Shown here piece after piece: positions 31,319 to 51,718 of a stretch of DNA of 64,000 bases (position 1 is the stretch's first letter; each line of letters opens with the position of its first letter). The DNA lies in NCBI RefSeq assembly GCF_018398315.1, contig NZ_JAHBRW010000002.1:294637-358636 (forward strand). Direction: 5' to 3'. The notes below the pieces were generated by a model. That model was not told where the DNA came from. It made no database searches and was given only the letters and a program-made list of their open reading frames with translations. Origin of the DNA: Chelatococcus sp. YT9. Lineage in GTDB: Bacteria; Pseudomonadota; Alphaproteobacteria; Rhizobiales; Beijerinckiaceae. The position numbers were made by a program, and so were the translations under genes.

Positions 31319-32221
31319 TCACGGCTTCTCGCGCACGATCGGGGTGCCGGAGGAGCCGACCGCATTGGAGAGATGCGCGTGCATCACCTCGCTGGCGCGT
31401 CGATAATCTCCGGCAAGAACGGCGTCGATAATAGCGAGATGTTCTTTACACCACTCGCGAACGCGCCGCCGGTTCCGGTAACCACCGAATTCAAGAAGAC
31501 GCCTCAGACGATTCTGCTGCTGTACGGCTTGCAGAAAGAAAACATTTCCACTGAACTCTGCAAACATCTCATGGAAACTTGCATCCGTCGAAAAGAGCTG
31601 CATGCTGTCGACGCCGCTTATATCGGGATGTGACGCGAGATACATGTGTTGCAGTCGGGCGCGCTCAAGGGCGGCCATGTCGGGCTTGAATGTGCTCAGG
31701 AGAAATGACGCCGGCTCAATCGTCAGGCGGAAGTCGTAACTCGAGTGAAGCGCGAGCTTGGAGTCGAGCGTCGGGAGAAAAGTCCAGCCGTGCCCCTTGT
31801 TGCGCGCGATTAGTCCGTCTTCTGAAAGTCGCCCGAGCGTCCTCAACATCACTACGCGATCAACGTCGTAACGCTGTGCGATCTCACTCTGAGTCAATGA
31901 CTGCGGGAGTATCCCGGCGAGCCTGTCTCGTACGAGCTGTTCATAAAGGCTCTGGTCAAGGGACGTCGGCACCTCAATTTCAATGCGGTGAAGCGCGTCA
32001 AACGGCTTGATGAGGAAAAAGCCCTGGTTCCGGCGAGCCTCCACGATTCCGAGCTCGGTCAGAAGCATCAATGCAGCGCGGATCGGTGTCCGCGAAACAC
32101 CTAGCAAGTCGCCAAGCTGCTGCTCGCGCAAATGATGGCCTGGCTCAAACTTCGCGTCCCGAATGAGATCGAGGATCTGGTTGGCGAGGCGGTGCCGACT
32201 CTGGTTGGATGATCGCGCCAT
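31319..32221 (-). CDS. GntR family regulator with two HTH units and an FCD domain
   Basis: A 300-residue regulator, longer than usual FCD members (about 220-250). The first winged helix at about 10-73 holds LREQQLGDLLGVSRTPIRAAL. A second HTH-like unit at about 92-150 (LTQSEIAQRYDVDRVVMLRTLGRL, then DGLIARNKGHGWTF) resembles another winged helix. The FCD domain follows from about 158, with SFHEMFAEFSGN and later His residues for a metal or ligand site. The nearest targets are the dehydrogenase and M24 genes upstream on the same strand and the transporter operon at 35086. The ligand is unknown. Confidence 0.88.
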   Translation of the reverse strand: MARSSNQSRHRLANQILDLIRDAKFEPGHHLREQQLGDLLGVSRTPIRAALMLLTELGIVEARRNQGFFLIKPFDALHRIEIEVPTSLDQSLYEQLVRDRLAGILPQSLTQSEIAQRYDVDRVVMLRTLGRLSEDGLIARNKGHGWTFLPTLDSKLALHSSYDFRLTIEPASFLLSTFKPDMAALERARLQHMYLASHPDISGVDSMQLFSTDASFHEMFAEFSGNVFFLQAVQQQNRLRRLLEFGGYRNRRRVREWCKEHLAIIDAVLAGDYRRASEVMHAHLSNAVGSSGTPIVREKP

Positions 32222-32384
32222 GGATCTGCTTCTGTTCTAAGGACGTTTAGTGACGGCAACCGAGCAATTGGAGTTCCTCGAACAGCGTAAGCAAACGGTC
32301 TCGCGCTTGGATACCGGAAGCCCGCTGCACTATCTGTTGCGCGAAGCAGTGTCCAGTGCGAATCCGCGGCGATCCTGCATGGCC

Positions 32385-33446
32385 TCAGGCCTTCAAGCCA
32401 TCGACAAAGCGCCTGGCCCCGGGGAGGAAATCTGATAATTTTTGCGCCGCAAGCGCAGGATCTCCGAGTGTGTCAATAATCGTGAACCAGGGCATCGTGC
32501 GCGCATAATCCGGCAATGCGACGAGAGTGTCGGCAACCAGATCCCAACTAGCACCGATATGATCTGGATGGAACGGCAACCGCGCGTCGACAATCAGCCG
32601 GGCAGGACTGTCCGGGTCGTTTCCTTGCAGAAGGGCCATCAGCAAAATGCCAAGCGCCACCGCTTCGCCATGGATCATGCGGCGGCCAGCCGTGGCATCG
32701 AGGGCCCAGGCAAACAGGTGCTCCGAGCCCGCGTTGAAGCGCGCTTTGGGATGGGAGGAAAACCAAGGCGCGAAGCGCGCGCAAGCTCTGATGATACCGA
32801 CGAACGCGTCCGGCTCCCCGTGTGCGACGGCCGGGATCATCTGAGGAACGGCTTCGAGTTCATTCAGGGCGAATGCGAGCAGGGTTTGGTCCCAGTCAAC
32901 GTCCAACCCGGCCTTGTGCCCGAGAGCCCAATCGAACACGGCGGTGTGGCTGCATAGAATTTCTGCCAAGCCCGCCCGATTGAATGACGGAGGCGCTGCA
33001 GCGATCAGCGCAGTGTCCGCAATTATCGCATGCGGAACCGGGCAGTCCCTTTCCGCAATACGCCGCCCTCCATCCATCGCCCAAGCTGTCCGCGTGAAGC
33101 ACGCATTATTCGAGGCACTGCTCGGAACTTGGACAAGGACCTGCCCATTCTGCCGTGCGACATACTTTGCCGCATCCATGACAAGGCCGCTGCCGACCCC
33201 GACAACCGTGTGGAACGCCGCGGCCTCGCGAGCGTATTGATCGAGCAATTTTCGATCATTCCCTTCCACTACGATGACTGACAGGGGGGGTGATGCAAGA
33301 ATGGTGGCGACTGCACGCAGCGGGGAACGCGTTGTCAGGATAACAGGCCGCGTCCATTCTTCGCTCGCCTTTCGCAACACTCCCGATCCATGAATGATGG
33401 GGGGCCAATCGCGAGCGGAATCTATGCCATGAGGCACGGCTTGCAA
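32385..33446 (-). CDS. Iron-type alcohol dehydrogenase / glycerol-phosphate dehydrogenase-like protein
   Basis: A 353-residue oxidoreductase of the glycerol dehydrogenase/sn-glycerol-1-phosphate dehydrogenase superfamily. The nucleotide-binding motif GVGSGLVMDAAK lies at 83-94 with Asp91. Metal-site candidates are His243 (GSEHLFAW) and His259 (MIHGEAVALG). The usual metal-binding Asp is replaced by Glu162 in AGLAEIL, which may alter metal preference. It is encoded between the double-HTH regulator and the M24 gene on the same strand, so it probably belongs to the same catabolic locus and reduces or oxidises a polyol- or aldehyde-like intermediate. I cannot assign its substrate. Confidence 0.82.
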   Translation of the reverse strand: MQAVPHGIDSARDWPPIIHGSGVLRKASEEWTRPVILTTRSPLRAVATILASPPLSVIVVEGNDRKLLDQYAREAAAFHTVVGVGSGLVMDAAKYVARQNGQVLVQVPSSASNNACFTRTAWAMDGGRRIAERDCPVPHAIIADTALIAAAPPSFNRAGLAEILCSHTAVFDWALGHKAGLDVDWDQTLLAFALNELEAVPQMIPAVAHGEPDAFVGIIRACARFAPWFSSHPKARFNAGSEHLFAWALDATAGRRMIHGEAVALGILLMALLQGNDPDSPARLIVDARLPFHPDHIGASWDLVADTLVALPDYARTMPWFTIIDTLGDPALAAQKLSDFLPGARRFVDGLKA

Positions 33447-33489
33447 CTCCCATTTCGAACCACCCTGCGCGAACCTCTTGTGACCGATG

Positions 33490-34677
33490 CTAAGCTTGGA
33501 CGATCTCGCGACTTATGTTGCTGAAGGTTCGTGGCGCACCATCCGTCACCAGGACCGTCTCGCTCACGGCAACCGTGAACTTGTTGTAAGCCCGCAGTGT
33601 AATTGGCACATGAAAGGCCATGCCCGGCTCCAGAGGGATGTCGATCCCGCGAAACAGGCTGAGGATGTTACCCTCTCCCCAATCCGGAGCGAAGGAAATG
33701 CCCATGCTGTAGCCCGTGCGCTTACGGTAGCCGTTCGTCTGCCCATGACGATCGATCACAGCCTGTACGGCATTGTGAACGTCGGCACATGTATTGCCGG
33801 GGCGGAGTTTTTCCAACGCCACCTCAAGGGCCTCGCCGCACACCTGATACATGTCGCGTGCAACCTGAGGAACACCGCCGCATGCGACAGTGCGGAAGAG
33901 TGCCACGTGGTAACGGTTGTAGCACGCCGACGTCTCGAGAACAGTTACGTCGCCAGGCTCGATCTGGCGGCGACGCCATGTCGTATGGGGAATTCCGGAA
34001 CGAGGTCCTGAAGTAACAAACGGTTCCATCCCGACATATTCGGACCCCGCCTTGATGGCGGCGCCCATGATAGCGGAAGCGATGTCGTTCTCGCTCGCCC
34101 CGATCTTCGTTACGGCAAGTCCGGCGCTCATTCCAGCCTCATTGGCGAGACCGGCCTTTTCCATCTGCTCGATTTCCAAAATGGACTTCACACGGCGGAG
34201 GGGCTCCACAAGCCCAGTTGCGTCGAGGAGAGGGCCGAAGTCCGCGACAAGCTTGTTGTAAATATTGATGGTCAGGAACCATCCACTTTGATCAATCGCC
34301 ACACGCTTCCCGCGCCAGCCGCGCGCAACGAGCACTTCAGCCACGGCGCTCGCCGGGAGGACATCGTCGGCGTAGCCAATGATGTCATCGATGTAGGTAT
34401 TGAGGCGCGCATTCATGGCCTCCAGTCCACGCAGGACATGGAACGGTTTACCCTCGAGTGGCACGCACAGACATTGGAATGTATAGTAGCCCGGCGTCTG
34501 CTGGCCAGATAGATAGAAGATATTCTCAGGCCCTGACAGAAGGACAAGATCGAAGCCGCGCTCGCTCATCATTGTACGGAGCCTGGCAAGACGTCGCTCA
34601 TATTCGTCTCTCGGGAAGACGCTCTCTTTGCCCTGCGGCACTTCCTGCAAGATGTCGTTGAGATCAAAATCTGCCAT
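33490..34677 (-). CDS. M24 family hydrolase of creatinase/ectoine-hydrolase type (copy A)
   Basis: A 395-residue pita-bread-fold protein. ATG 34677 is chosen for its GGAGAAAATCGATC site. The N-terminal creatinase domain covers about 20-160 (LLSGPENIFYLSG), and the catalytic domain about 170-395. The five metal ligands of aminopeptidase P are not conserved: Glu248 and His257 stand near the two Asp positions, RKRTGYS (318-324) replaces the HGxGH motif, and FHVPITL (355-361) lacks the Glu; only Glu373 remains. His231 (SGIPHTTW) sits where creatinase has its catalytic His. It therefore resembles metal-free C-N hydrolases such as creatinase or ectoine hydrolase rather than peptidases. A close paralogue lies at 41209. 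Confidence 0.88.
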   Translation of the reverse strand: MADFDLNDILQEVPQGKESVFPRDEYERRLARLRTMMSERGFDLVLLSGPENIFYLSGQQTPGYYTFQCLCVPLEGKPFHVLRGLEAMNARLNTYIDDIIGYADDVLPASAVAEVLVARGWRGKRVAIDQSGWFLTINIYNKLVADFGPLLDATGLVEPLRRVKSILEIEQMEKAGLANEAGMSAGLAVTKIGASENDIASAIMGAAIKAGSEYVGMEPFVTSGPRSGIPHTTWRRRQIEPGDVTVLETSACYNRYHVALFRTVACGGVPQVARDMYQVCGEALEVALEKLRPGNTCADVHNAVQAVIDRHGQTNGYRKRTGYSMGISFAPDWGEGNILSLFRGIDIPLEPGMAFHVPITLRAYNKFTVAVSETVLVTDGAPRTFSNISREIVQA

Positions 34678-35085
34678 GATCGATTTTCTCCACGCTGGAA
34701 GATGCGCGCACTGCACGGCACCGGCGGCCGTCCACGATTGTATATTAACGCGCTATTTGACCAATTCAATACCAATCGTCTCTGACGTGCAAGCGGCCAA
34801 GCACCTCCTAATCCGCTACGATGCTTTAAATCCGGGCACGAGAAAATAACAGCGCCCCAATAATTTCCTCAAGGATTATCAGGTATTTACAGCAGTTCAC
34901 CCTGTCAGCGCCGGAATTTCGCGACTTGGGGCCGGTTGCAAAGCTGCCAGGCATCTGCTGAAATGGTGGGCATCACATTGCTGAAAATGTATCAAAAAAA
35001 ACAAAATGCGTGCTGGACACCGGCATCTTCGCGTTCTTAAATGTGGCTTCAACACAAGAAAAAACTGAACTGACGAGGTGGAACC
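34678..35085. promoter_or_regulatory. Divergent intergenic region, probable promoters
   Basis: This 408-base AT-richer interval separates the divergent M24 gene and the transporter operon. On the - strand, TTGGTC and TACAAT with 16 bases between them (around 34735-34765) resemble a sigma-70 promoter. On the + side, A-rich tracts (around 34991-35005 and 35055-35068) precede the ribosome site GAGGTGGAACC. No ORF or RNA gene is evident. Confidence 0.4.
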
Positions 35086-36162
35086 ATGAAAAGTCGTGCG
35101 AGCCGCATGGCGGCGGTCGTCGGGTTGGCAGTTTCCTGTTTAGCAGCCAATCAGCTCCAGGCTCAGGAAGCCTGCACTTCCATGCAAGTATTCCTCGGCA
35201 TCGCGCCAAACCATCGCGAGAACGTGATGGAATACATAGCGCCCAAGCTGAAGGAAAAATTCAATGTCGAGCTCGTCGCCGAGGCGATCGGTTCAGCCAA
35301 CATGGTCGAGCGTATCACGGCGCAGGGCGCCAACCCGCGCATCTCGATCGCACAATGGGATGTGCCTATCGGGCTGACGGCCTGCGAGCAAGGGTTGTGC
35401 AAGGCCATTGATGTCAATCGTGCGCCTAATACCAAGAATCTAGCCGAGTGGGCTGTAACCAAGGACAAGGACGGCAACCCGAATGTCCTGGCCACCAATG
35501 TGCTGGGGGTTGGCATCATCTACGATGAGGAGCAGTTCAAGAAGAACAACATGGCCCCTCCTAAGTCATGGTCAGACCTTGGTCGTCCCGACATGAAAGG
35601 CAGGGTTGCGATAACCGCTCCACAGAGCACGATGGGCACAGCGGCTCTTGTCATGCTGGCCAAGAATAACGGTGGTGGCGAAGCCAACATCGATCCTGGA
35701 TTTGATGCAACCAGGAAGCTTCTCCCTAATATCCACACTGTTTTCACCTGGACCTCTGAGCTCTCCAATCTCATGCAGCTTGGCGAGGTCTGGGCCGCCG
35801 TAACCAGTTCGAACATCGCCCCCGCTCTGCGCGCTCAAGGAATTCCGATGAAGTTCGTAATTCCGCAGGAAGGTTCGCCCACGGTCAATGGTGGACTGTC
35901 GCTGGTCAAGGGAGCACCGTGCGAGGAGGTCGCTTATGAGTACATCAACTTGTACTATAGCGACGAGTTCCAGGCCCTGCGGATGCGGAAAGGCGCAACA
36001 GCGAGCCCCAGCGCGTCAGCCTGGACCAAGCTCACTCCGGAAGAGCGAGCCGGAATGGGACTGACGGCTGACGATTTCTCTAAGCTTGTCAATTTTGATT
36101 GGCGCGCCATCAATGCGGCACGCCCGGCCTGGATCGAGCGCTGGCAGCGTGAAGTTCGCTAG
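35086..36162 (+). CDS. ABC transporter substrate-binding protein, PotD/AfuA family
   Basis: A 358-residue periplasmic protein with a Sec signal peptide cleaved after LQAQ (about residue 26). Two Cys pairs are visible (near 29, then TACEQGLC near 103-108), which could form disulfides. The WSDLGRPDMKGRVAITAPQSTMG and VNGGLSLVKGAPCEEVAYEYINLYYS blocks are typical of the spermidine/putrescine/iron(III)/opine-type family. It heads the operon that continues with ATPase, PotB-like and PotC-like genes. It is clearly diverged from the two duplicated binding proteins at 27363 and 30036. Confidence 0.9.
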   Translation: MKSRASRMAAVVGLAVSCLAANQLQAQEACTSMQVFLGIAPNHRENVMEYIAPKLKEKFNVELVAEAIGSANMVERITAQGANPRISIAQWDVPIGLTACEQGLCKAIDVNRAPNTKNLAEWAVTKDKDGNPNVLATNVLGVGIIYDEEQFKKNNMAPPKSWSDLGRPDMKGRVAITAPQSTMGTAALVMLAKNNGGGEANIDPGFDATRKLLPNIHTVFTWTSELSNLMQLGEVWAAVTSSNIAPALRAQGIPMKFVIPQEGSPTVNGGLSLVKGAPCEEVAYEYINLYYSDEFQALRMRKGATASPSASAWTKLTPEERAGMGLTADDFSKLVNFDWRAINAARPAWIERWQREVR

Positions 36163-36305
36163 CCGACGGGTCAAGAAGGCCCGCTTCCTTGAGATCGGGC
36201 ATTCACTCTCGCCAGGAACACGCGCTCAGGCGTGCCTCATACGTCGTGAAACTGCCTGCAAAGAGCTTTCTCATGATCGCTGCCCTCAGGAGACACGAAG
36301 CGCCT

Positions 36306-37418
36306 ATGGCCAGTTTCGCGTTCGAAAGCCCCCGCAAACCGATCCTGAAGATCGAGGGCGTCAACAAGACATTCCAGAATCAACACGTTCTGCAGGACCT
36401 CAATCTGGAGATTGCCGAGGGTGAATTCCTGACGCTGCTTGGCCCCTCAGGCTGCGGCAAGACAACGACATTGAACATGGTCGCGGGATTTCTTCAGCCA
36501 GATTCCGGGAACTTGTTCCTCCGCGGCCTTTCCGCAAACACCTTGCCGCCACAGAAGCGGAGACTGGGCATGGTGTTCCAGTCCTGGGCGCTCTTTCCTC
36601 ACATGTCCGTATTCGACAATGTCGCTTACGGATTGCGCATGCGCGGCTTTCCTGGAAGCGAGATCCCGACGCGCGTCACGGCGATGCTCGAGATGGTCCG
36701 TCTGTCGAGCGCCAGGGACAAGTTTCCCTCCCAACTCTCGGGCGGCATGCAGCAACGTGTAGCGCTCGCGCGCGCGCTCGTTACCGAGCCGGATCTTCTC
36801 CTCCTCGATGAGCCCCTCTCCAACCTCGACGCGGCCTTGCGCAAGGATATGCAGGTCGAGATCAAGCGCATCCACGAACGGCTGAAGGTGACAACGCTTC
36901 TGGTCACCCATAGCCAGGAGGAAGCGCTCGTCATGTCTGACCGGATAGCTGTCATGCGAGGAGGCCGCATCGAGCGCATCGCATCGCCACACGCCATCTA
37001 TACGGATCCTCATACCGCTTTTGTCTGTACTTTTGTCGGTGACGCCAACGTCTTCGATGCCACGATCGAGAGCATCTCCGGCAGCACCGCGGTGCTCCGT
37101 GTCGGCAGCCAGCGTATTCTCGCGCCCCGAGCTCCACGGGCTGACGGCCGTGGTTCCGTGCAGATCGCCATCCGGCCGGAAAATGTCGCGATAAGCCGGG
37201 TGGGGAACGTCAAGGGGGACAACGTCCTCGAAGGAACCGTCGAAGACACGATCTTCAAAGGCAACAACATTACCTACGAAGTGGACGTGGCGGGGCATAA
37301 ACTTCACGTTCTCGATCTGCCGAAAGTGGGACAAGACCTGTATCGGCGTAAGGATCACGTCAGCCTCGCGTTCTCCCGGGAGAGCGTCATTATCCTAGAT
37401 GGCGAGAGGAGCGCGTGA
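36306..37418 (+). CDS. ABC transporter ATPase, PotA type
   Basis: A 370-residue ATPase. ATG 36306 (MASFAFES) is preferred; an ATG at 36273 is an alternative and the frame is open to 36189. Walker A GPSGCGKT lies near residues 46-53, signature LSGGMQQR, Walker [17 protein letters not shown], and a TOBE domain from about 285 ([11 protein letters not shown]). The upstream gap of 143 bases after the binding protein gene contains a weak GCCCG/CGGGC stem, common where binding proteins need higher expression. The stop overlaps the PotB-like ATG. Confidence 0.9.
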
Positions 37419-38338
37419 TGGCTGATGTCACCGCTAGCACTGCCCCTGCGCCGACGGGCGTGGCACGAAGGCTTGGCGCTAACGTTACAGCGTTGTTCTT
37501 CACGGCGCCGATCATTCTGCTCCTGATCGTCTTTTTCGCTGTACCACTCTTTGATCTGTTCGGCTTCAGCTTTACGGCCTATAAGGCGGGGCCGCGCACG
37601 AGTGACGGACCGATGACGCTGGTGAATTTCACCGCGATATTCGGTGATCCATTCTACCTTGCGATGATCGGCAATTCGCTCATGCTCGGCTTGTTGACCG
37701 TGATCGCGACGCTTCTCATCGGCTATCCGGTCGCGTTTTACCTGACACGCGCCAGCGGATGGGAGCGCACGCTGATCTCCGTTGCTTGCCTCCTCCCCAT
37801 TTTCGTTAATCTGATTGTCGGGATCCTGGGCTGGTATATCCTGTTGTTACCCTTTGGTGTTTTCCAGCAGATCCTTTCCTCGGTCGGCCTCGTTGATGGT
37901 CCCCTACCCTGGCTGCGGTCGTTCTGGACACTCGTTGCGGTCCTCACCTACGAGCATCTCCCATTCGCCATCCTCATCCTGGCGTCAACGATTCAGGCCG
38001 TGCCACAGGACAAGATCAACGCCGCGCGCATTCTCGGCGCGTCCACGCCGCGGATCATCTGGAACCTGATGCTGCCCCTGACGGCGCCCGGTCTGGTCGC
38101 CAGCGCCATCCTCGTGTTCTCGCTCAGCGTCTCGTCCTACCTCATCCCCATCCTGATCAGTGGGCCGCGGACACAAGTCTTGCCAATCGCGATCTTCAGC
38201 TATGCGAGTGAGCTGATGAATTGGCCGATGGCCTCGGCGCTCGCCCTCGTGCTCCTCATCGTCGTCGCGACGATGACCTATGCCGCAGCGGCGGTCGCGA
38301 ACCGCGTGACCCGCCGCGGACAGTGGGAGATGGTGTAA
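37418..38338 (+). CDS. ABC transporter permease, PotB/PotH type
   Basis: A 306-residue permease with about 25 cytoplasmic N-terminal residues, six predicted membrane segments, the LVNFTAIFGDPFY segment after TM1, and the EAA loop (NAARILGASTPRIIWNLMLPLTAPGL) near residues 197-222. The start junction is GTGATGGCTGATGT, as in the PotB-like gene at 21339, and both proteins begin MADVTA. The stop overlaps the PotC-like start (TAATG). Confidence 0.9.
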   Translation: MADVTASTAPAPTGVARRLGANVTALFFTAPIILLLIVFFAVPLFDLFGFSFTAYKAGPRTSDGPMTLVNFTAIFGDPFYLAMIGNSLMLGLLTVIATLLIGYPVAFYLTRASGWERTLISVACLLPIFVNLIVGILGWYILLLPFGVFQQILSSVGLVDGPLPWLRSFWTLVAVLTYEHLPFAILILASTIQAVPQDKINAARILGASTPRIIWNLMLPLTAPGLVASAILVFSLSVSSYLIPILISGPRTQVLPIAIFSYASELMNWPMASALALVLLIVVATMTYAAAAVANRVTRRGQWEMV

Positions 38339-39123
38339 TGCGGTTCCTGCGCGTCTTCGTCTATCTCATCGTCGTTCTAATGCTTCTTCCGACGCTCATC
38401 AGTCTGCCGGTAGCCTTGACCGCAACATCAGGGATCCGGTTCCCTCCGGTTGGCTTAAGCACACGGTGGTTCGAGGCCATCTTCGCCGACGGCGTCCTAC
38501 TGGCATCGATCTGGCGAAGCTTCGTGCTTGCGGTCATTGCATCCGTTGTCGCCGTCGTCATCAGCGTACCCTGCGCCTTCGCACTTGAGCGTTCACGCGG
38601 CAAATGGCGCAACTCGGTCGAGACCTTCATAACCGGTCCGCGGATGATTCCACAGATTGTCTTCGTCCTGGCGCTTCTCGTCTACTTCGAGCGGCTTGGC
38701 ATCGCGGAAACGTTCGTTGGCCTCGTCATCGCTCATCTCGTCATCTCGATCCCCTTCGCCTTCCGTACAGTCATGGTGTCCGTCGCGTCGGTAGACCGCC
38801 GGCTGGAGTGGAGTAGTGCGATCCTCGGGGCAAATCCCGTATCCACTTTTTTCCGTATCGTTGTTCCTCAGATCAAGACAGGAATGATCGCGGCGTTCAT
38901 CTTTACATTCATCCTGTCGTTCAACAACGTCACAATGGCACTATTCCTCTCGGGCATTGGTGAGCGCACTCTACCAGTCGAGATGTTCCAGAGGATGTAC
39001 GTAGGTGGCATGACACCTGTGATCCCGGCGATTTCCTTCCTGCTGGCGATCGTTGGCATCATCGCTTTCATCATCCTCGACCGCACGATCGGTGTGTACA
39101 AATACTTGGCCGGACGTGACTGA
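38338..39123 (+). CDS. ABC transporter permease, PotC/PotI type
   Basis: A 261-residue permease. ATG 38338 overlaps the PotB-like stop; the frame upstream is a shadow of that gene. TM1 starts almost at the N-terminus, followed by the FPPVGLSTRWFEAIF segment typical of PotC proteins. The EAA loop (SSAILGANPVSTFFRIVVPQIKTGM) is near 160-185 and SFNNVTMALFLSG follows. It completes a PotDABC-like transporter (35086-39123). Confidence 0.9.
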   Translation: MRFLRVFVYLIVVLMLLPTLISLPVALTATSGIRFPPVGLSTRWFEAIFADGVLLASIWRSFVLAVIASVVAVVISVPCAFALERSRGKWRNSVETFITGPRMIPQIVFVLALLVYFERLGIAETFVGLVIAHLVISIPFAFRTVMVSVASVDRRLEWSSAILGANPVSTFFRIVVPQIKTGMIAAFIFTFILSFNNVTMALFLSGIGERTLPVEMFQRMYVGGMTPVIPAISFLLAIVGIIAFIILDRTIGVYKYLAGRD

Positions 39124-39182
39124 TACTGTCCGTAGATCAACGAGACCAGAGCCGAAGCGCCCAGACGCGACGGGGATTCCTC

Positions 39183-42390: not shown

Positions 42391-42399
42391 AGGTGCGAC

Positions 42400-44085
42400 G
42401 TGGCAGGACTTCCGATCGAGAGCGAGATCATCGAAACTGACGTTCTCATCCTGGGTGGCGGGCTTGCAGGTTTGCGCGCCGCCATCGCGGCCCGCGAGAC
42501 CGGCGCGCGCGTCATCGTATCCGTGAAGGGGAAGATCGGGCGCAGCGGCTGCTCGGCCATGACAACCGCCGGCTATGCCGCGGCGATGCCCGCGCAGGAT
42601 CCGGGCGACAGTTCGCTTTGCTGGTCAGCCGACACCCTTCGTGGTGGCGCGGATATCGGCGACCCTGTTCTCGTCGACGCGCTCTGCCGGGAGGGGGCGG
42701 AGGAGGTTCACGCGCTGGAAAGAATCGGTGGATCTTTTCAGCGCGTTGATGCCGGTTACAGGCTTTCGGCGAGCGGCGATCACTCCCGGGCGCGCGTGCT
42801 GGTGACACCTAACAATCTCGGCACCGATTTGACGGTTCCGCTCGCTTCACAGGCCGAGGCATTGGGCGTCAGCGCGCTCGATTTCACCATGGCGGTCGAC
42901 ATCGTCGTGGGCAGCCATGGCGTGGTCGGAGCGATCCTCCTGGATTTAAAGCGCGGGCAACTGCTCAGGATCGCAGCCTCTTCCGTCATCATTGCGACGG
43001 GTGGCGCGGGCCGGCTTTTCTCGGTCACCAGCAATCCGAATGATGTCACAGGTGACGGCTTCTCGCTCGCGGCTGCCGCCGGCGCGCAGCTTCGCGACAT
43101 GGAGTTCATTCAATTCTATCCGTGGCGATGTATAGACCCCTTCGACAAGGCGCGGGTCTCCATCCAGCCTTCGACATTCGTGCACGGCGCGAGGCTATAC
43201 AATGCGCGTAACGAGCGCTTCATGGAGGTATTCAATCCGGGCGGCGTTGAAATCTCGACGCGCGATATCGGCGCAAGGGGCATTTATAGCCAGATGCGCC
43301 AGGGGCTTGGCGTTGGCGGCGGCGTGCGCCTCGACCTCTCGCAGGTATCGCCCGAAGACTTCGCGCGCTCAAATCCCAAGGTCGCGAAATACGTGGCCGC
43401 ACAGAACCTGGATTATGCCGCCTATCCCTTCATCGTCACGCCGGAGGCCCATTTTTGGATGGGCGGCGTCGCCATTGGCGAAGATGGCGCGGCAACCGTA
43501 GCCGGGCTTTACGCTGCTGGAGAGGCAGCCGGAGGGATCCACGGAGCCAACCGGCTGAATTCGAATGCCTTACCCGATACGCAGGTTTTTGGCGCGCGTG
43601 CAGGCCTTGCGGCGGCTGGGACGAGGCAGCGCCACGACAATCAGCGCCATGGCAAGTTCGGCCTCGATGCCGCAGCGGAACACTGGTCCGTGCGCATGAG
43701 CCAGCCGTCCGGCATGGCGCCTGAGGAGCTGAAATCGCATTTGGCGATGCTTCGGCGAACTATGTGGGAGAGCTTGGGGATCATTCGCGAAGCATCATCC
43801 ATGGAGGCCGGCCTCGCCCAGGCTCGCGTACTTCGCGCCGAGCTGGATGAGCGTGGCGCCGCAGTTGGCGCCGCGCGCGCCTGGCGGGAACTCTGCTTCC
43901 TGTGTGACACCGCCGAACTCTCATTGGCGAGTGCCTTGTTTCGGCGGGAAAGCCGCGGCGCTCATTTTCGGGACGACTATCCCGAGCGGGACGACGAACG
44001 ATGGTGCGGCAGCGTTTTCATCGCCGCCGCGGCAGCTGCGGAACCCAAGGTGACATTCAGCCCGAGGATAAGACATGCGGCGTGA
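42400..44085 (+). CDS. FAD-dependent oxidoreductase, fumarate reductase/SdhA-like
   Basis: A 561-residue flavoprotein beginning at GTG 42400 with AAGGTGCGAC upstream. The dinucleotide motif LILGGGLAGLRAA starts at residue 16, and ATGGAGRLFSVTSNP near 198-212 contacts FAD. The C-terminal YAAGEAAGGIHGANRLNSNALPD motif (about 370-393) is the classic SdhA/FrdA/L-aspartate oxidase signature. The capping-domain pattern fits enzymes that oxidise or reduce a C-C or C-N bond next to a carboxylate. No iron-sulphur or membrane-anchor partner is encoded nearby, so a soluble oxidase such as an amino-acid oxidase type is more likely than a respiratory complex. The last 11 bases overlap the M20 gene. Confidence 0.88.
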   Translation: MAGLPIESEIIETDVLILGGGLAGLRAAIAARETGARVIVSVKGKIGRSGCSAMTTAGYAAAMPAQDPGDSSLCWSADTLRGGADIGDPVLVDALCREGAEEVHALERIGGSFQRVDAGYRLSASGDHSRARVLVTPNNLGTDLTVPLASQAEALGVSALDFTMAVDIVVGSHGVVGAILLDLKRGQLLRIAASSVIIATGGAGRLFSVTSNPNDVTGDGFSLAAAAGAQLRDMEFIQFYPWRCIDPFDKARVSIQPSTFVHGARLYNARNERFMEVFNPGGVEISTRDIGARGIYSQMRQGLGVGGGVRLDLSQVSPEDFARSNPKVAKYVAAQNLDYAAYPFIVTPEAHFWMGGVAIGEDGAATVAGLYAAGEAAGGIHGANRLNSNALPDTQVFGARAGLAAAGTRQRHDNQRHGKFGLDAAAEHWSVRMSQPSGMAPEELKSHLAMLRRTMWESLGIIREASSMEAGLAQARVLRAELDERGAAVGAARAWRELCFLCDTAELSLASALFRRESRGAHFRDDYPERDDERWCGSVFIAAAAAAEPKVTFSPRIRHAA

Positions 44086-45232
44086 CGCAATCATCGCGGC
44101 AGTGACTGCACGCGAGGAGGCGATGCAGGCATTTCTGCGTCACATCGTCGATATGGATTCGCCAACCGAAGACAAGCGGCTATCAGACGCTGTCGGCGCG
44201 GTGCTGGAGGCCAAGGCTCAAAGCCTCGGTATGCATGTCACCCGCGATCCGCAAGCGTACTTCGGAGATAATCTCGTCTGCCGGGCAATTCCAACGCACA
44301 AGAGTAATGCGCCTCGTGTTCTGCTTGTCGGCCATTTTGATACAGTCTATGCCGCCGGCACGGTGGCAGAACGTCCTTACAGACTTGACGGTGATCATGC
44401 CTATGGTTGCGGCATCTATGACATGAAGGGCGGATTGACAATCGGTCTCTTTGCGCTTGAGGCACTTGCTTCCGTCCGCGGCGAAATTCCGCTCCCGGTG
44501 ACATTCATCTTCAATAGCGACGAGGAAATCGGCTCACCGAAGTCGCGCCGTGTCATCGAGGAGGAGGCCGCGCGGCACGATCTGGCGCTCATTCTCGAAC
44601 CCGGCCGCCCCGGGCCCGCACTGACCATCGCCCGCAAGGGTGTCGGCATATTTCGACTGACTGTGGACGGACGGGAGGCGCACGCGGGCGCCGAACCGGA
44701 AAAGGGCATCAATGCGATCGTCGAGATTGCGCATAAAACGCTCGCCATCCAAGCGCTTAACGCCCCGGATCTCGGGACGACGGTCACGCCTGGCGTCATC
44801 ACGGGAGGCACGAAGCCCTATGTCGTCCCGGGCCAAGCCAGTCTGGAGGTCGATTGCCGCGTGCCGTCCGAGGACGAACAGAACCGCATCCTGCGAGCTA
44901 TGGATGCCATATCCGCCAGCATATCCGTTCCAGGAACCTCCACTCGTCTATCCGGAGGCTTTCATCGGTCGCCAATGGAGCCCACTGCCCGCGCTATGGC
45001 ATATGTTCGTCAGCTGCAAGCCATCGCAGATGCTGTTGGTTATCCCATCGGGGCCGAGCCAGCCGGCGGCGCCTCCGACGGCAACCTCACGAGCGCGATC
45101 GGCACGCCAACCATCGACGGGCTTGGTCCCCATGGCGGGAGGGCGCACAGCCCCGAAGAGTTCATCGAACTGGGCTCTTTGCCGGCGAAATGCCGGCTTC
45201 TGGCCTGTTTTCTCGACGAACTGGCCGGCTAG
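44075..45232 (+). CDS. M20 family metallopeptidase, glutamate carboxypeptidase-like
   Basis: A 385-residue zinc-dependent amidohydrolase. Metal and catalytic residues are readable: His87 and Asp89 (GHFDT), bridging Asp116 (YDMKGG), Glu150/Glu151 (SDEEIGSP), Glu175 (EPGRPG), and a C-terminal His in GPHGGRAHSPEEF. The order and spacing match CPG2-like enzymes that release a C-terminal amino acid such as glutamate from N-acyl conjugates. A dimerisation domain lies between about 185 and 300. The ATG is inside the end of the flavoprotein gene. It is followed by 184 bases with a new promoter-like region. Confidence 0.9.
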   Translation: MRRDAIIAAVTAREEAMQAFLRHIVDMDSPTEDKRLSDAVGAVLEAKAQSLGMHVTRDPQAYFGDNLVCRAIPTHKSNAPRVLLVGHFDTVYAAGTVAERPYRLDGDHAYGCGIYDMKGGLTIGLFALEALASVRGEIPLPVTFIFNSDEEIGSPKSRRVIEEEAARHDLALILEPGRPGPALTIARKGVGIFRLTVDGREAHAGAEPEKGINAIVEIAHKTLAIQALNAPDLGTTVTPGVITGGTKPYVVPGQASLEVDCRVPSEDEQNRILRAMDAISASISVPGTSTRLSGGFHRSPMEPTARAMAYVRQLQAIADAVGYPIGAEPAGGASDGNLTSAIGTPTIDGLGPHGGRAHSPEEFIELGSLPAKCRLLACFLDELAG

Positions 45233-45341
45233 GGAACGCTCGCATACGTATTTGAAGATGAAATCATACAATTCTATCGTCCGGCCGAGAGCCCTGCGGA
45301 TACCGATTCTGTGTCTATCATTGTGATCCTGTTGGGCGCCG

Positions 45342-45354
45342 GGTATGCAATACC
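45342..45354. promoter_or_regulatory. Small palindrome in promoter-like interval
   Basis: GGTAT and ATACC are perfect 5-base arms around GCA, located 63 bases before the M20 gene at 45417 and followed by an AT-rich stretch (TTGATATTGTATGTTTTTG). A GntR-type operator is plausible, since such sites often read TTGTATGCAATAC-like, but no second identical copy was found in the window. Confidence 0.3.
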
Positions 45355-45416
45355 GCGATGTTGATATTGTATGTTTTTGTTCATAAAATGCAAAATCTGT
45401 CACGCTTGAGGATGCT

Positions 45417-46583
45417 ATGGCCGTCCCACCAGATCACCGGCGCATGAAGCGCGATCTTGCGCGCCTGATTGGCATTGACACGCAGAACCCTCCTGGCCGC
45501 GAGGCCGAGGCTGCGGACTTCGTTGGCGAACAACTGGCCGCCGTAGGCTTCGACATCGTGCGTGACGCCTTCTGGCCCCCGCGCGTCAACGTGATTGCAA
45601 CGATGAACAATGGTCCGGGCCCCGTCTTCGCGTTCAACACGCATATGGACACAGTACCTGTCGGCGAAGGCTGGACATCGGACGCGCTCGTGATGCGAGA
45701 GACCGATGGCCGGCTCTACGGGCGCGGTGCCTGCGACTGCAAAGGCCCCCTGGCCGCGATGTTGGAGGCGATGCGGATGCTTGCAGCGGATCGTTCCGGC
45801 TGGTCCGGAACATTGCTCGGCGTCTTTGTGGCTGATGAAGAAGTAGGAAGTGCAGGCGCCCGGCATTTCGTGTCCACCGCTCCCCGCATCGATTTCGCGG
45901 TTATTGGAGAGCCAACTTCCAATACAACTTTCGCGGCCCATAAAGGTAGTCTGCGTCCCCTTGTGCGGGTGAGGGGCGTCACCGCGCATTCCGGCTCTCC
46001 GCATCTCGGTGAGAACGCGATCTACCGGGCGGGGGAAGTACTCGCAATGATCGCCGCCTTCCACGAAACCGATGTAAGCCGCCGCACGCATCCGCTTGTT
46101 GGCCAGGCAAGTCTAACGGTCACGCGCATCAGCGGGGGCCATGCGGACAATGTCATTCCGGACGCCTGTGACCTGTTGCTCGACCGCCGCATGATTCCGG
46201 GGGAGGACGAGGACGCGGTCAAGGCTGAGATCGCCGCATTGCTGGCGGAAGCCAATCGACGTCACGGATTGCGTGCGGAGATCATCGAGTATCGGACGAC
46301 GACTGGAGGCGCTACCGAAACGCCCGTTGATCACCCGATCGTGCGCGCGAGCCTCGCGGCCTGCCGCGCTCACGGAACAGCCGATCCCGGGCCATTCGGC
46401 CTGCAGGGCGCCTGCGACCTGGTCCATTTCAATCGCATTGGCGCGCGGGGCGTGGTGGTGGGCCCCGGCAATATAGCAGCGGCACATAAACCGGATGAGT
46501 TTGTGCCGGAAGCGGAATTCCTGACGTCCAGCCTGATCTATCGCGACATCGCCTTGGCCATGTTGCGGGACGAAGCGCGATGA
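45417..46583 (+). CDS. M20 family deacylase, ArgE/acetylornithine-deacetylase-like
   Basis: A 388-residue amidohydrolase with ligands His76/Asp78 (NTHMDTVP), Asp107 (GACDCKG), Glu141/Glu142 (ADEEVGS), Glu165 (IGEPTS) and a C-terminal His in AAAHKPDEFV. The GACDCKGPLAAML and GEPTS patterns fit ArgE/DapE-like deacylases. GAGGATGCT precedes the ATG. It is separated from the upstream M20 gene by its own putative promoter and is followed by a DapA-family gene. A role in removing an N-acyl group from an amino acid derived from the transported compound is inferred. Confidence 0.9.
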   Translation: MAVPPDHRRMKRDLARLIGIDTQNPPGREAEAADFVGEQLAAVGFDIVRDAFWPPRVNVIATMNNGPGPVFAFNTHMDTVPVGEGWTSDALVMRETDGRLYGRGACDCKGPLAAMLEAMRMLAADRSGWSGTLLGVFVADEEVGSAGARHFVSTAPRIDFAVIGEPTSNTTFAAHKGSLRPLVRVRGVTAHSGSPHLGENAIYRAGEVLAMIAAFHETDVSRRTHPLVGQASLTVTRISGGHADNVIPDACDLLLDRRMIPGEDEDAVKAEIAALLAEANRRHGLRAEIIEYRTTTGGATETPVDHPIVRASLAACRAHGTADPGPFGLQGACDLVHFNRIGARGVVVGPGNIAAAHKPDEFVPEAEFLTSSLIYRDIALAMLRDEAR

Positions 46584-46725
46584 TACGCGCGTCGCCGCAT
46601 GACATCAAAACCTCACCAACGGCAGGTCTTGGCGTGAAGTTTCACTCGGGCCGCAGCAAGCAACTCCGGCCGTCAATGTGTTGAACGCGCCACTTAAATC
46701 TGCCAATTCCGCAAGGACCAGCACA

Positions 46726-47649
46726 ATGAAAGACATCGTCGAATGCCGGGCGCGCTTGCGCGGCATCTTCAACATCACGGTAACTCCCTTTCACCAGGAT
46801 GGGAGTTTTGACTGGACCGGCATGTCCCGCAACATCGAAAGGGTTATCGGCCTTGGCTTCGACGGCATCTTGATCGGCGGCACATATGGCGAATTTCCAG
46901 CCATGACCGCTGGTGAACGCGCGCAGATGTTCCGCCACGTCATGGAAGTGGTAGGCGACAAGGTTCCCGTTATGCTGTGCAGTGCGGGATCCGACACCCG
47001 GGATGTTAAGGCGCTTACGGAACTTGCCGGAGCTCTCGGCGGCCTCCCCATGGTTACGCCGCCCTTCGTCTCGGAAGTAACGGATGATCAGATCGTCGGC
47101 TTCTTCCGCGATATGGCGCCTTTGTCGAAGACTGGTGTGCTCATTTATAACGCGCCTGGAATCGGTATCACGCTGTCGTCGTCAACGATTGAGCGACTCG
47201 CCGATATCGAGGGAATCGTGGGAATCAAGCAGGGCGATCTCACACCCACCGTCATCGACCAGATCGCCAACCGTCTCGGAGGTCGCATCAAGCTCTTTTG
47301 CGCATCTGATCTTGGATTTCTCGGCCCTATGATGACTGGCTTCGACGGAATCAGCTCGACGAATAGCGGCGCTCTACCCGAGTTGATCCTCAAGATCTAC
47401 CGCGCGGTCGAAAGTGGCGACGGTCATCTCGCGCGCGATCTCAACAGGCTGTGGTATCCGTTCCGAGCCGCAGCCCGATCGCTCGGTCAACCTCAGACAG
47501 TGAAGGCGGCGATGAACCTGCGGGGCTTCGATGGCGGGTCTGTACGCCTGCCCTTGCGTGACCTCACCGGCGGTAATCTTGATTCCGTGGCAAGTATACT
47601 GGAGGCTCTGGCCGCCGACCCACGCGCCGGAGTCACACTCGAGCGCTGA
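46726..47649 (+). CDS. DapA-family (dihydrodipicolinate synthase/N-acetylneuraminate lyase) aldolase
   Basis: A 307-residue class I aldolase-fold enzyme. ATG 46726 with AAGGA upstream is preferred over TTG 46678. The GGTYGEF motif at 51-57 is the family GGTTGE-type motif with Tyr in place of one Thr. Tyr141 (IYNAPG) and the Schiff-base Lys168 (GIKQG) are in place. Members condense or cleave pyruvate with an aldehyde, or dehydrate keto-deoxy sugar acids. In this catabolic setting it probably cleaves or dehydrates a keto acid rather than making lysine. A hairpin terminator follows and the next gene converges. Confidence 0.9.
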   Translation: MKDIVECRARLRGIFNITVTPFHQDGSFDWTGMSRNIERVIGLGFDGILIGGTYGEFPAMTAGERAQMFRHVMEVVGDKVPVMLCSAGSDTRDVKALTELAGALGGLPMVTPPFVSEVTDDQIVGFFRDMAPLSKTGVLIYNAPGIGITLSSSTIERLADIEGIVGIKQGDLTPTVIDQIANRLGGRIKLFCASDLGFLGPMMTGFDGISSTNSGALPELILKIYRAVESGDGHLARDLNRLWYPFRAAARSLGQPQTVKAAMNLRGFDGGSVRLPLRDLTGGNLDSVASILEALAADPRAGVTLER

Positions 47650-47673
47650 TCAGGAGCCGTGAACGCTGGAAAG

Positions 47674-47700
47674 GCCCGCCGTTGCGCAGACAAGGCGGGC
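47674..47700. terminator. Bidirectional rho-independent-like terminator
   Basis: The arms GCCCGCC (47674-47680) and GGCGGGC (47694-47700) enclose a 13-base loop. TTCTTC follows on the + side, and GAAAG precedes the left arm, giving CTTTC on the - side. It lies between the converging DapA-like gene and the aminotransferase gene, where a shared terminator is expected. Confidence 0.65.
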
Positions 47701-47729
47701 TTCTTCGAGGAGCCCCGCTGGATTTCGCG

Positions 47730-48962
47730 CTATGCCACGGCCTTCCGCGCCGCCGGCCTTGTCAAACGGCGGCAAGCATCCTCGACCCGACGGCAAGCGT
47801 CTTCAAGCACCGCGTTGTCCTGTGCGTAGGCGATGCGAATATAGGGGGACGCACCGAAGGCAGCGCCATGCACCACGGCAACCCCAGCCTCTTCCAACAA
47901 GTAGGTGGCGAAGTCGAGATCGCTGGCGATCAACTTACCGGCGGGCGTGGCAAGACCGAGAGCACCGGCGCAGTTTGCGAAAGCATAGAAGGCCCCTTCG
48001 GGCGAGACACAGGTCAGAACATCGGTATTCCGGATCATCTCCATGACGATCGCCCGCCGCTCGACCAGGCGCTCCTGCCACTCACCCATGAATGTCCGGC
48101 CGCCTTTCAACGCGGCGACGGCGGCGGCCTGCGAAATCGAACAAGCATTCGACGTCGACTGAGACTGCAGGGTTTGCATCGCGGCAATCAACCACGATGG
48201 GCCACCGGCGTAGCCTATACGCCACCCAGTCATCGAATAGCTCTTGGATACGCCATTGACGGTCAACGTCCGCGTCTTGAGACGAGGCTCGATTGCAGCC
48301 GGTGTCGCGAAGGGCACGCCGAAACGCAGATGCTCATAGATATCATCCGCCATGACGAGCACATGCGGATGGGCCATGAGCACATCCGTCAGACCCCGCA
48401 TATCCTCCGGGCTATAAACTACGCCCGTCGGATTGCCGGGCGAATTGAGGATCAGCCAACGCGTCAGCGGCGTTATCGCCGCCGCCAGGTCAGCTGGTCG
48501 CAGCTTCCACCCGTCTTCGGCCCTGCAAGGCAGGATACGGGACTTGCCATCGGCCAACGCGACCATGTCGGGATAAGATACCCAATAGGGTGCGGGAACA
48601 ATAACTTCGTCATCTGCCGCGACGGTCGCCAGCAGTGCGTTGAAAATCAACTGTTTGGCGCCGGCCCCGGCGATAACTTCCGAGGGCTGGTAGGCTAGGC
48701 CATTTTCCTCGGCGAACTTCGCAATGATCGCCTCCTTGAGCGCGGCCGTGCCGGCCACAGCCGTATACTTTGTTTCGCCTTTCTCGATTGCGGAGATCGC
48801 AGCCTGCTTCACATGATCCGGCGTATCGAAGTCCAGCTCACCTTCGCCAAGATTGGAGATTGTACGCCCGGCTTCAGTTAGGGCGCGAACCTTGTCCGAG
48901 ATCTCGGCGGTGGCGGATGGGCGCACACGAGACATGCGCGGCGACAGTACGGTCGCGTCCAT
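47730..48962 (-). CDS. Class I pyridoxal-phosphate aminotransferase (aspartate-aminotransferase-like)
   Basis: A 410-residue PLP enzyme. The PLP Lys is Lys240 (NGVSKSYSMTGWRIGY), with Arg248 contacting the phosphate side. NSPGNPTG is at 173-180, DDIYEHLRF near 206-214 carries the ring-binding Asp and Tyr, and the substrate-carboxylate Arg is expected near the C-terminus (SPYIRIAYA). The start at 48962 has AGGAGCCCCAA upstream. It belongs to the broad aspartate/aromatic aminotransferase subgroup I-gamma. It converges with the DapA-like gene and is divergent from the AllC-like amidohydrolase, and probably deaminates an amino acid released by the M20 enzymes. Confidence 0.9.
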   Translation of the reverse strand: MDATVLSPRMSRVRPSATAEISDKVRALTEAGRTISNLGEGELDFDTPDHVKQAAISAIEKGETKYTAVAGTAALKEAIIAKFAEENGLAYQPSEVIAGAGAKQLIFNALLATVAADDEVIVPAPYWVSYPDMVALADGKSRILPCRAEDGWKLRPADLAAAITPLTRWLILNSPGNPTGVVYSPEDMRGLTDVLMAHPHVLVMADDIYEHLRFGVPFATPAAIEPRLKTRTLTVNGVSKSYSMTGWRIGYAGGPSWLIAAMQTLQSQSTSNACSISQAAAVAALKGGRTFMGEWQERLVERRAIVMEMIRNTDVLTCVSPEGAFYAFANCAGALGLATPAGKLIASDLDFATYLLEEAGVAVVHGAAFGASPYIRIAYAQDNAVLEDACRRVEDACRRLTRPAARKAVA

Positions 48963-49252
48963 TTGGGGCTCCTGATCGATGTGAGGATTGTATAAATATA
49001 GACTTTTTATTCAACAAAAAACGAATCGTGAGACGCACTCACGTCGATCATTCTTTCACCGTATCCATACGCTTCACGTTAAACAAATTTCCGATATGCT
49101 CAATGAAAAGGCATGATAGTCCGGCCCGCCGCGAAATCGCTGGCAATTGCGGCACTGACACGGGGTTGACGCAGGGATCAGCTTGCACAATTGTACCATT
49201 TGAATCAAAAAGTAATCGTGATGCACTGCGCAAGGGCGCGCATGCCGACAAC

Positions 49253-50548
49253 ATGGGCTCGCTGACGATGTCCGCTAAGCTTTCGAATGGTCCAGTCGCC
49301 GAACCGGACATGGATCTGGCAACACGGCTGTTCGACACGTTGCGCGACAAGACCAGGGACGGGCGGGGCGTGACGCGAGCAGCCTATGGCGACGGCGAGC
49401 AACTGGCTCATGATCTCGTTGCTGCCGAGGCTCGGCGCATGGGTCTCGATGTGGCGGTCGACGCGACGGGAAACCTCTATGTCACGATGCGCGGCACAGA
49501 CCCCGACGGCAAGGCGGTCATCATCGGCTCGCATCTTGATTCCGTGCCTATCGGCGGCAATTTTGACGGCGCCGCAGGGGTGTTCGCCGGCCTCGCGATC
49601 TTGTCCGGCTGGCATGCGGCCGGCTTCCGGCCACGCCGGGATGTTATGGTCATGGCCATCCGCGCCGAGGAAAGCAATTGGTTTCCTTACTCCTATGTCG
49701 GGTCCAAGGGCGCGCTCGGCCTCCTTCCAGCAGAAGCCCTGGAGGTCAAGAGATCAGACACCGGAAGGTCGTTGCGAGAGCATATGATCGAACTTGGGCT
49801 TGATCCGGCGTCGGTGGCAGCGGGTATCCCACATCTGAAACCAGAAGCCGTGGCTGCCTATCTTGAGCTTCACATCGAGCAGGGACCGGTGCTGATCGGC
49901 GCGGATCAGCCTGTCACGCTCGTCACCGGCATCCGCGGCAGCTTTCGATATCGGCAGGCGCGGATGATCGGTGAATATGCGCATTCAGGAGCCGTGCCAC
50001 GCAGCTATCGGCATGACGCCGTGATCGCCGCTGCGGACTTCGTCACACGCTTGCAAGAAGAATGGATTGCGATGGAGAGTGAGGGTCATGATATGACCCT
50101 TACCGTGGGCATTTTCTCGACGGATCCGGCCCAGCATGCTTTCAGCAAGATTGCCGGGGAGGTTTCACTGGCGATCGATGTACGAAGCCATGTTACCGAT
50201 ACTCTTGATGAGATGCGACGTCGGCTTCACATACACGCCGATGCCGTGAGTCGGAAACATGGCGTGACCATCGACCTCGGGCCGCTAACGGGCAGCGCTG
50301 CCGCGGTCATGGATGCAGGCGTGCTCAAGGTCTTCGGCGGAGCGATGCGGGATCTGGGGCTGCCTCACTTTGAAATGGCGAGTGGTGCAGGGCATGATGC
50401 GGCCGTTTTCGCGAATGCCGGCATCCCGACGATCATGCTGTTCGTGCGCAACCAGAACGGCAGCCACAATCCTGACGAAGCAATGGAAATGGATGATTTC
50501 GCGATTGCCACACGGCTCCTGGCGACCGGTGTGGAACGGCTGCTGTAG
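49253..50548 (+). CDS. M20 family amidohydrolase, allantoate/N-carbamoyl-amino-acid hydrolase type (AllC/HyuC-like)
   Basis: A 431-residue zinc hydrolase. The frame is open far upstream, but that part is antisense to the aminotransferase and has no family character, so ATG 49253 (or 49268) is chosen; neither has a strong ribosome site. GSHLDSVPIGGNFDGAAGV at 92-110 gives metal residues His94 and Asp105; Glu139/Glu140 (RAEESNWF) and ELHIEQGPVL near 205 are hallmark motifs of ureidoglycolate, allantoate and N-carbamoyl amino acid hydrolases. The C-terminal MASGAGHDAAVFA carries the last His. Hydrolysis of a ureido or carbamoyl bond is predicted, which fits a locus that also encodes creatinase-type proteins. 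Confidence 0.88.
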   Translation: MGSLTMSAKLSNGPVAEPDMDLATRLFDTLRDKTRDGRGVTRAAYGDGEQLAHDLVAAEARRMGLDVAVDATGNLYVTMRGTDPDGKAVIIGSHLDSVPIGGNFDGAAGVFAGLAILSGWHAAGFRPRRDVMVMAIRAEESNWFPYSYVGSKGALGLLPAEALEVKRSDTGRSLREHMIELGLDPASVAAGIPHLKPEAVAAYLELHIEQGPVLIGADQPVTLVTGIRGSFRYRQARMIGEYAHSGAVPRSYRHDAVIAAADFVTRLQEEWIAMESEGHDMTLTVGIFSTDPAQHAFSKIAGEVSLAIDVRSHVTDTLDEMRRRLHIHADAVSRKHGVTIDLGPLTGSAAAVMDAGVLKVFGGAMRDLGLPHFEMASGAGHDAAVFANAGIPTIMLFVRNQNGSHNPDEAMEMDDFAIATRLLATGVERLL

Positions 50549-51638: not shown

Positions 51639-51658
51639 CCCGCGCACTCTGCCCTTCC

Positions 51659-51672: not shown

Positions 51673-51718
51673 TAAACCACTTGACAGCCAGCGTCCACAT
51701 TTCATACCAATCGTTATC

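Follow-up and report, generated by a model that had tools for sequence, protein, structure and literature searches.

A rare accessory gene cluster with two metal-free M24 proteins in Chelatococcus sp. YT9, a candidate pathway for breakdown of a small nitrogen compound

Which compound would a bacterium take up and degrade with two M24 proteins that lack the peptidase metal ligands, and do the genes around them belong together? The question is raised by a 19-kb gene set at positions 31319-50548 of the window, that is, of the whole 64,000-nucleotide stretch of Chelatococcus sp. YT9 DNA that was analyzed. The set looks like an uptake and breakdown pathway for a small nitrogen-containing molecule. 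It behaves as one unit, an accessory block that is rare among the bacteria searched, and we lean slightly towards reading it as a single catabolic cluster whose one substrate would be a small amino-acid derivative, N-acylated or ring-closed, other than ectoine. Sixteen genes were assigned by family-model matches and the reading of open reading frames (ORFs); in the following list the basis is a family match unless another is given.

31319-32221, minus strand: GntR-FCD regulator with two N-terminal helix-turn-helix stretches
32385-33446, minus strand: Fe-ADH_2 or glycerol-1-phosphate-dehydrogenase (G1PDH)-like oxidoreductase (FeADH)
33490-34716, minus strand: M24a, a metal-free M24 protein, likely ATG at 34677 (Creatinase_N and Peptidase_M24 matches)
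34737-34744, plus strand: candidate operator ATTGTATA between M24a and the binding protein (motif scan)
35086-36162, plus strand: periplasmic solute-binding protein (SBP_bac_8/6)
36306-37418, plus strand: ATP-binding cassette (ABC) transporter ATPase, PotA/PhnT-like; the ORF opens at 36189
37415-38338, plus strand: ABC permease, PotB-like
38338-39123, plus strand: ABC permease, PotC-like; the ORF opens at 38221
39183-40325, plus strand: enolase-superfamily (MR/MLE; MLE subgroup) enzyme (also PDB comparison)
40322-41212, plus strand: NodB-like protein of no named family, its stop overlapping the M24b start (weak profile likeness)
41209-42390, plus strand: M24b, the second metal-free M24 protein; the ORF opens at 41104
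42400-44085, plus strand: flavin adenine dinucleotide (FAD)-binding flavoprotein, SdhA/L-aspartate-oxidase-like
44075-45232, plus strand: M20a, glutamate-carboxypeptidase-like M20 hydrolase
45265-45272, minus strand, and 45366-45373, plus strand: two ATTGTATG copies upstream of M20b (motif scan)
45417-46583, plus strand: M20b, ArgE/DapE-family deacylase (TIGR01910, 229 of 217.6 bits)
46678-47649, plus strand: DapA-family (DHDPS) aldolase/lyase; orthologues start near 46726
47730-48962, minus strand: class I/II pyridoxal-phosphate aminotransferase
48987-48994, plus strand: candidate operator ATTGTATA between the aminotransferase and M20c (motif scan)
49253-50548, plus strand: M20c, HyuC/AllC-type N-carbamoyl or N-acyl amidohydrolase; the ORF opens at 48770

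The families named in a preliminary description of this DNA were all recovered in place, the NodB fold excepted. Two starts were revised: the ORF start of M20c at 48770 is too early, as conservation with homologues begins near 49253, and M24b was corrected to begin at 41209, overlapping the stop of the NodB-like gene. Overlaps of a few bases join the ATPase and the two permeases, the enolase, NodB-like and M24b genes, and the FAD and M20a genes, and resemble those of coupled operons.

Conservation was analyzed in samples of 249 genomes of the order, 119 of the family and 385 of the class, and by a scan of GTDB genomes; the whole-genome searches score first-look candidates only. M24 matches at an E value of 1e-80 or better were found in 13 of the 249 order genomes, and three of these 13 (the own genome, Afifella pfennigii G189 and Acuticoccus mangrovi G226) reached at least 63% identity. 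A NodB-like profile matched six of the 249 at 1e-8, with values below 1e-130 in the same three and weak matches (1e-40 to 1e-48) in G017, G131 and G231; G226 also has a second, weak one. Because this profile (A5) was built from the copies of the own genome, the same-genus genome G641, Bosea, Afifella and Acuticoccus and from the own paralogue, the E values of its members are flattered, and the informative part of the search is the absence from the other genomes. Both the M24b orthologue and the NodB-like orthologue are held by the same three of the 249 genomes; with the own genome left out, the chance of two in 248 coinciding is about 3e-5 when genomes are treated as independent. The GTDB scan for M24b, made with two short peptide patterns by which distant copies could be missed, gave five loci: Bosea sp. 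BH3, Afifella, Acuticoccus, a metagenome-assembled genome (MAG) of Acetobacteraceae, and one unrelated M24 protein (22%).

Common to the own, Bosea, Afifella and Acuticoccus loci are the regulator, M24a, M20b (cut in Bosea by the end of the stretch read), the four importer genes, the enolase, the NodB-like protein, M24b, the FAD protein and M20a. M20c is 62-65% identical in Afifella and Acuticoccus. In all, 14 of the 16 genes are shared by Afifella, 14 of 16 by Acuticoccus, and 13 of 16 plus a relative of M20c by Bosea, and the same-genus G641 carries 16 of 16 at 82-94% identity. The short contig of the Acetobacteraceae MAG reads NodB (part), M24b, FAD, M20a (part). Among the loci read, the Fe-ADH_2 gene was found besides the own one only in G641 (82%) and Bosea (49%); Afifella and Acuticoccus carry a short-chain dehydrogenase (SDR) and a 2-hydroxyacid dehydrogenase, as would be expected if a redox step were met in different ways.

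The block is absent in one piece from another genome of the same genus. The flanks in G677 match window positions 18953-31117 (86%) and 52794-54644 (85%), and the 21.7 kb between them (31118-52793, including TetR and SDR genes at 51027-52539) are replaced by 3.2 kb with a reading frame that we read as GGDEF-type. At 1e-100, an M24b profile matched four of the 119 family genomes, two of them with the cluster (own and G641) and two with simpler, core-type M24a loci described below. Of the four genomes of the genus in the family sample, the own one and G641 carry the cluster, and G677 and G708 gave no M24b match at this threshold. With the genes co-occurring in other lineages and absent as one piece from G677, the single locus proposed in the preliminary description is upheld.

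Parts of the cluster also occur in other company. A core of M24a and M20b, often with GntR, enolase and DapA, is more widespread than the full set. Fifteen core loci were read, comprising nine genome stretches, four plasmids and a further two from the family sample; the reading did not cover the 4.4-kb contig of G144 at length. Relatives of M24a and M20b stood together in all 15, with GntR in 12, a core enolase in 11 (one being the query), DapA in eight and the aminotransferase in four. The GntR relatives of these 12 loci and of the three other cluster lineages are 40-75% identical. The N-acetyl-D-Glu racemase DgcA is among the named models closest to the core enolase, at 113 of 400 bits and far below the cut-off. 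In five further loci, referred to as pxp (Salipiger, A. tumefaciens AF1/95, Methylobacterium, Shinella and R. tumorigenes), an M24a relative was accompanied by a PxpA homologue and a VOC protein in 5/5, and by an M20c relative, a 2-hydroxyacid dehydrogenase and a D-amino-acid transaminase in 4/5 each. Four distant NodB loci (L100-L103) all combine a NodB-like protein with M20c (49-52% identical to that of the window) and a 2-hydroxyacid dehydrogenase (47-51% to that of Afifella); an HpaI-type aldolase and an Ldh_2 dehydrogenase are also present in L102, which is partly annotated and the only one of the four annotated further. The theme common to these contexts would be amide hydrolysis, followed by a 2-oxo or 2-hydroxy acid and then an aldolase.

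Separately, the VOC protein beside or near M24a relatives is 81-92% identical across Agrobacterium, Rhizobium, Salipiger, Shinella and Methylobacterium (L045 16388-16801, L048, L064-L067, L070), a conservation far above that of the neighboring genes.

Such modules would also be expected of a composite island, in which two or three separate pathways, each with its own substrate, were placed under one regulator, the arms being the M24a-M20b-DapA-aminotransferase core and M24b-NodB-FAD-M20a. This explanation, which we consider unlikely, is favored by the core loci, where orthologue-level NodB, FAD and M24b were found in 0 of 15, by the NodB-M20c-2-hydroxyacid dehydrogenase sets, with no M24 found within the 20 kb read in 4/4, and by a gene order that varies between lineages. 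It is opposed by four lineages, drawn from three or more families, in each of which M24a, M24b, M20b, NodB, FAD and M20a accompany the importer, by the single importer and single regulator, and by the absence as one block in G677.

The two M24 proteins are about 39% identical, and Creatinase_N and Peptidase_M24 models match both. At the five places of the ligands D-D-H-E-E in the Xaa-Pro aminopeptidase 4fkc, which we take to be the M24 metal ligands, the alignment gave E-A-Y-P-S in M24a (the first Asp changed to Glu, the remaining four replaced) and, through the M24a/M24b alignment, E-P-Y-P-S in M24b. The D-D-H-E-E site of the M24 metallopeptidases is found in neither. The ectoine hydrolase DoeA (6twj), the nearest solved structure for M24a and M24b alike, also lacks these ligands in the alignment; the ligand loss first noticed in the translations is borne out for both proteins. 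Since all six aligned M24a/M24b rows, and DoeA as well, have the Glu at the first ligand place and the His in 'PH', M24a and M24b are taken to be working enzymes. No characterized member of their group was found.

A tree of 54 M24 rows recovers M24a and M24b as two monophyletic groups and joins M24a to the core and pxp proteins (support 100/99). The EutD and EutD-like rows make up a separate group of ten (97/100), distinct from M24a/core/pxp. The tree is rooted at the midpoint only, carries a long-branch warning (e.g. Tsukamurella DoeA), and leaves out core_L016 (the 4.4-kb contig) and the M24b of G641. Two more adjacent M24 gene pairs with Pot-type importers were seen in the own genome (L058 and L059), one of them with an M20a relative at 37%, and a further M24 protein, part of which is 27% identical to M24a, lies at window positions 57124-58371.

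The kinship with ectoine hydrolase seen in the preliminary description was right, and ectoine itself is an unlikely substrate. Against the EutD/DoeA models, M24a scored 205 of 613 bits (TIGR02993) and 294 of 575 (NF038259), and M24b about 182-183 of 613 and 275 of 575, all below cut-off; among 13 EutD-model matches in the own genome, the window's M24a and M24b score best and none passes the cut-off. A match over the EutD cut-off was present at another place in five of 15 other genomes with M24a-type loci, all five core-type. Acuticoccus and Afifella have a separate near-EutD match below cut-off (598 and 506 bits). Catabolism of ectoine or 5-hydroxyectoine by a non-orthologous variant is thus rather improbable: besides the low scores, the separate clade and the co-resident EutD matches, no eutABC-, EnuR- or EutE-type gene was found among the families matched in the cluster, and a DapA-like aldolase, NodB or FAD protein is not known to take part in the established ectoine route. 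For such a variant speak DoeA as the closest solved structure of both M24s and the own genome, G641 and Bosea, in which no separate EutD match was found over cut-off or at E 1e-100. Moreover, clusters with two eutD genes in other phyla are called putative ectoine clusters in PMC13188858 (section 8). Taken together, the cluster is probably not for ectoine.

The remaining enzymes were compared with their named relatives. In 4/4 orthologues of the FAD protein, QFHP of SdhA reads QFYP, with Tyr in place of His, and another sequence stands for the RGEGG segment; these hold what we take to be the catalytic His and Arg of L-aspartate oxidase and SdhA, so succinate or aspartate chemistry is unlikely. 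It scored below cut-off for nadB (311 of 453 bits) and sdhA (319 of 567), the best model being NF004900 (402 of 718). The DapA-like protein keeps the Schiff-base Lys and the Tyr and has Ile in 4/4 aligned at the presumed Arg138 position (residue roles follow the family literature), and reached 114 of the 206 bits of TIGR00674. In the alignment, the enolase keeps its metal ligands and has KxR instead of KxK. M20c exceeded the hydantoinase/carbamoylase cut-off (TIGR01879, 269 of 204 bits). A cationic substrate, as first suggested, found no support: the PotD model gave the binding protein 33 of 582 bits, and an aminoethylphosphonate model 59 of 393.

That the cluster serves to import and degrade an unusual dipeptide, cyclic or not, with the M24 and M20 proteins as peptidases and the enolase as dipeptide epimerase, is quite improbable: M24 and M20 are peptidase families and the best PDB match of the enolase is L-Ala-D/L-Glu epimerase (123 of 500 bits, below the equivalog cut-off), yet both M24s lack the peptidase metal ligands, the DxD that we take to mark this epimerase is not at the aligned place (CELWG aligned to DFDA), and the binding protein matches SBP_bac_8/6 with no oligopeptide model listed.

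The NodB-like protein appears to represent a rare, unnamed family. The window protein had no Pfam or NCBIfam match, six homologues had no Pfam match, PF01522 included, at E up to 5, and the profile met nothing better than E 0.15 in the PDB. Aligned by hhalign to six PF01522 proteins of the own genome, it gave 174 columns at E 3e-4 with a probability of only 41%. At 1e-8, the own genome was the only one of the 385 class genomes to be matched; it holds a further copy at 1.9e-117 (itself in the profile), and neither the cluster copy nor the paralogue had a match among plasmids. A second NodB-like paralogue (27-29%) was observed at L057 (G000:C1 about 1731000-1739000), in a cluster that also has a PF01522 protein, an M20 hydrolase, an arginase-family protein and an ABC importer.

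In some of the loci, a shared motif may serve as the GntR operator. The window has six copies of ATTGTATR where 0.87 would be expected (0/100 shuffles as high), four of the six in intergenic stretches of the cluster. Of 21 copies of TTGTATR in 357 kb, 14 lie in 27 stretches (7.5 kb) of the cluster and core loci, distributed over 11 of them; shuffled stretches gave a mean of 1.8 and a maximum of 6 in 200 shuffles, a control that shuffles single bases only. Five of the 27 stretches are those in which visual inspection first brought up the motif, and the count is partly circular because stretches were chosen after hits in the own aminotransferase/M20c gap, G641, Bosea, Pantoea and G045. None of the 11 intergenic stretches tried contains TNGTNNNACNA, which we take to be a GntR operator form.

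On these grounds, the following route is proposed for a single substrate, each reaction and their order being conjectural. The GntR regulator would control the divergent operons, and the ABC importer would take the compound up. M24a and M24b, as metal-free relatives of ectoine hydrolase, would open or deacylate C-N bonds as EutD does, and the NodB-like protein and the three M20 enzymes would strip further amide, acyl or carbamoyl groups. The enolase-superfamily enzyme may correct a stereocenter (or eliminate), letting stereoselective hydrolases act, and the flavoprotein may oxidize a C-N bond. The freed amino acid would be transaminated to a 2-oxo acid, cleaved in turn by the DapA-family enzyme, and a dehydrogenase would dispose of the aldehyde. 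The order of steps is suggested mainly by the theme common to the related contexts. The successive C-N hydrolyses of the preliminary description fit the gene company of each module and stay conjectural with the rest.

The recurrence of the unit, its block absence in G677, the coincidence of M24b and NodB, the M24a-M20b pairing, the NodB-M20c module and the shared motif count for this reading. Several observations weigh against it. DapA, the aminotransferase and FeADH were not seen in all four lineages as far as read: besides the own locus, DapA was found only in the Afifella stretch, the aminotransferase only in that of Acuticoccus and FeADH only in that of Bosea. The HyuC-type gene of Bosea shows no more than 31% identity. 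The modules are also found separately, and several substrates are therefore possible. M24b stands next to the M24a group with weak support (89/66), and the motif is absent from 16 of the 27 stretches, including all four of Afifella and Acuticoccus and also those of Agrobacterium and Shinella. Finally, the NodB fold of the NodB-like protein is weakly supported.

In the open literature (subscription journals were mostly outside the search), no paper with this gene set was found, in agreement with the preliminary description. In our judgment the evidence is evenly poised on whether the cluster encodes an undescribed degradation pathway, perhaps for a plant- or sea-derived nitrogen compound, via two metal-free M24 hydrolases with the NodB-like protein as an extra C-N hydrolase. 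Opines, creatinine, nicotianamine, pantothenate and hydantoins were dropped as specific substrates for lack of evidence.

Upstream of the cluster, window positions 23474-31121 hold a class-III aminotransferase, a thiamine-pyrophosphate enzyme, an SDR and an M81/MlrC-like protein between two paralogous solute-binding proteins; these genes are kept in G677 and, as far as read, in G641, and form a separate catabolic locus. Downstream, the TetR and SDR genes separate M20c from RecQ; G641 lacks them, with an M20c-RecQ gap of about 0.2 kb, and G708 gave no RecQ match at 1e-200.

M24 proteins of this group are annotated 'Xaa-Pro peptidase' and could be mistaken for ectoine hydrolases. Taken with the Pxp-linked loci and the plasmid-borne core of Agrobacterium and Pantoea, the cluster shows a group that is not part of EutD and stands in several different gene contexts, and counts of ectoine users by homology alone could therefore be too high. 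The substrate, once found, would name a nutrient of plant-associated and other bacteria.

Three known systems invite comparison. In ectoine and hydroxyectoine catabolism (eutDE/doeAB, doeA-doeB2), a metal-free M24 ring opener and a deacylase are followed by an aminotransferase, with ABC or TRAP import (in part after PMC13188858 and PMC8739950); ABC import is found here, and the M24a-M20b pairing parallels the annotated DoeA-DoeB2 pair of Tsukamurella. In contrast to that system, the cluster has two M24s, which score far under the EutD cut-off and form a clade of their own, its M20b is an ArgE/DapE-type protein, and NodB-like, FAD, enolase, HyuC-type and aldolase genes are added. Hydantoin/allantoin (ureide) breakdown by HyuC/AllC resembles the cluster in that M20c belongs to the hydantoinase/carbamoylase subfamily and NodB-like proteins accompany a HyuC-type M20c in the cluster and in 4/4 distant loci; it differs in that no cyclic-ureide amidohydrolase family was among the cluster matches and M20c stays below the AllC equivalog cut-off (192 vs 598 bits). 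The third system is the core-type operon of Agrobacterium fabrum C58 pAt (ATU_RS26185-ATU_RS26135), for which no name or study was found in the open literature, nor by a search with estimated C58 locus tags, and which is also present on Pantoea, Shinella and Rhizobium lusitanum plasmids. These operons differ from the cluster in their annotated amino-acid-type ABC importer, another enolase and a glutaminase-like protein, and in lacking M24b, NodB, FAD and M20a; they resemble it in GntR (54-66%), M20b (62-69%) and M24a (51-52%) and, in Pantoea and Shinella, in DapA (65-68%) and the aminotransferase (58-60%).

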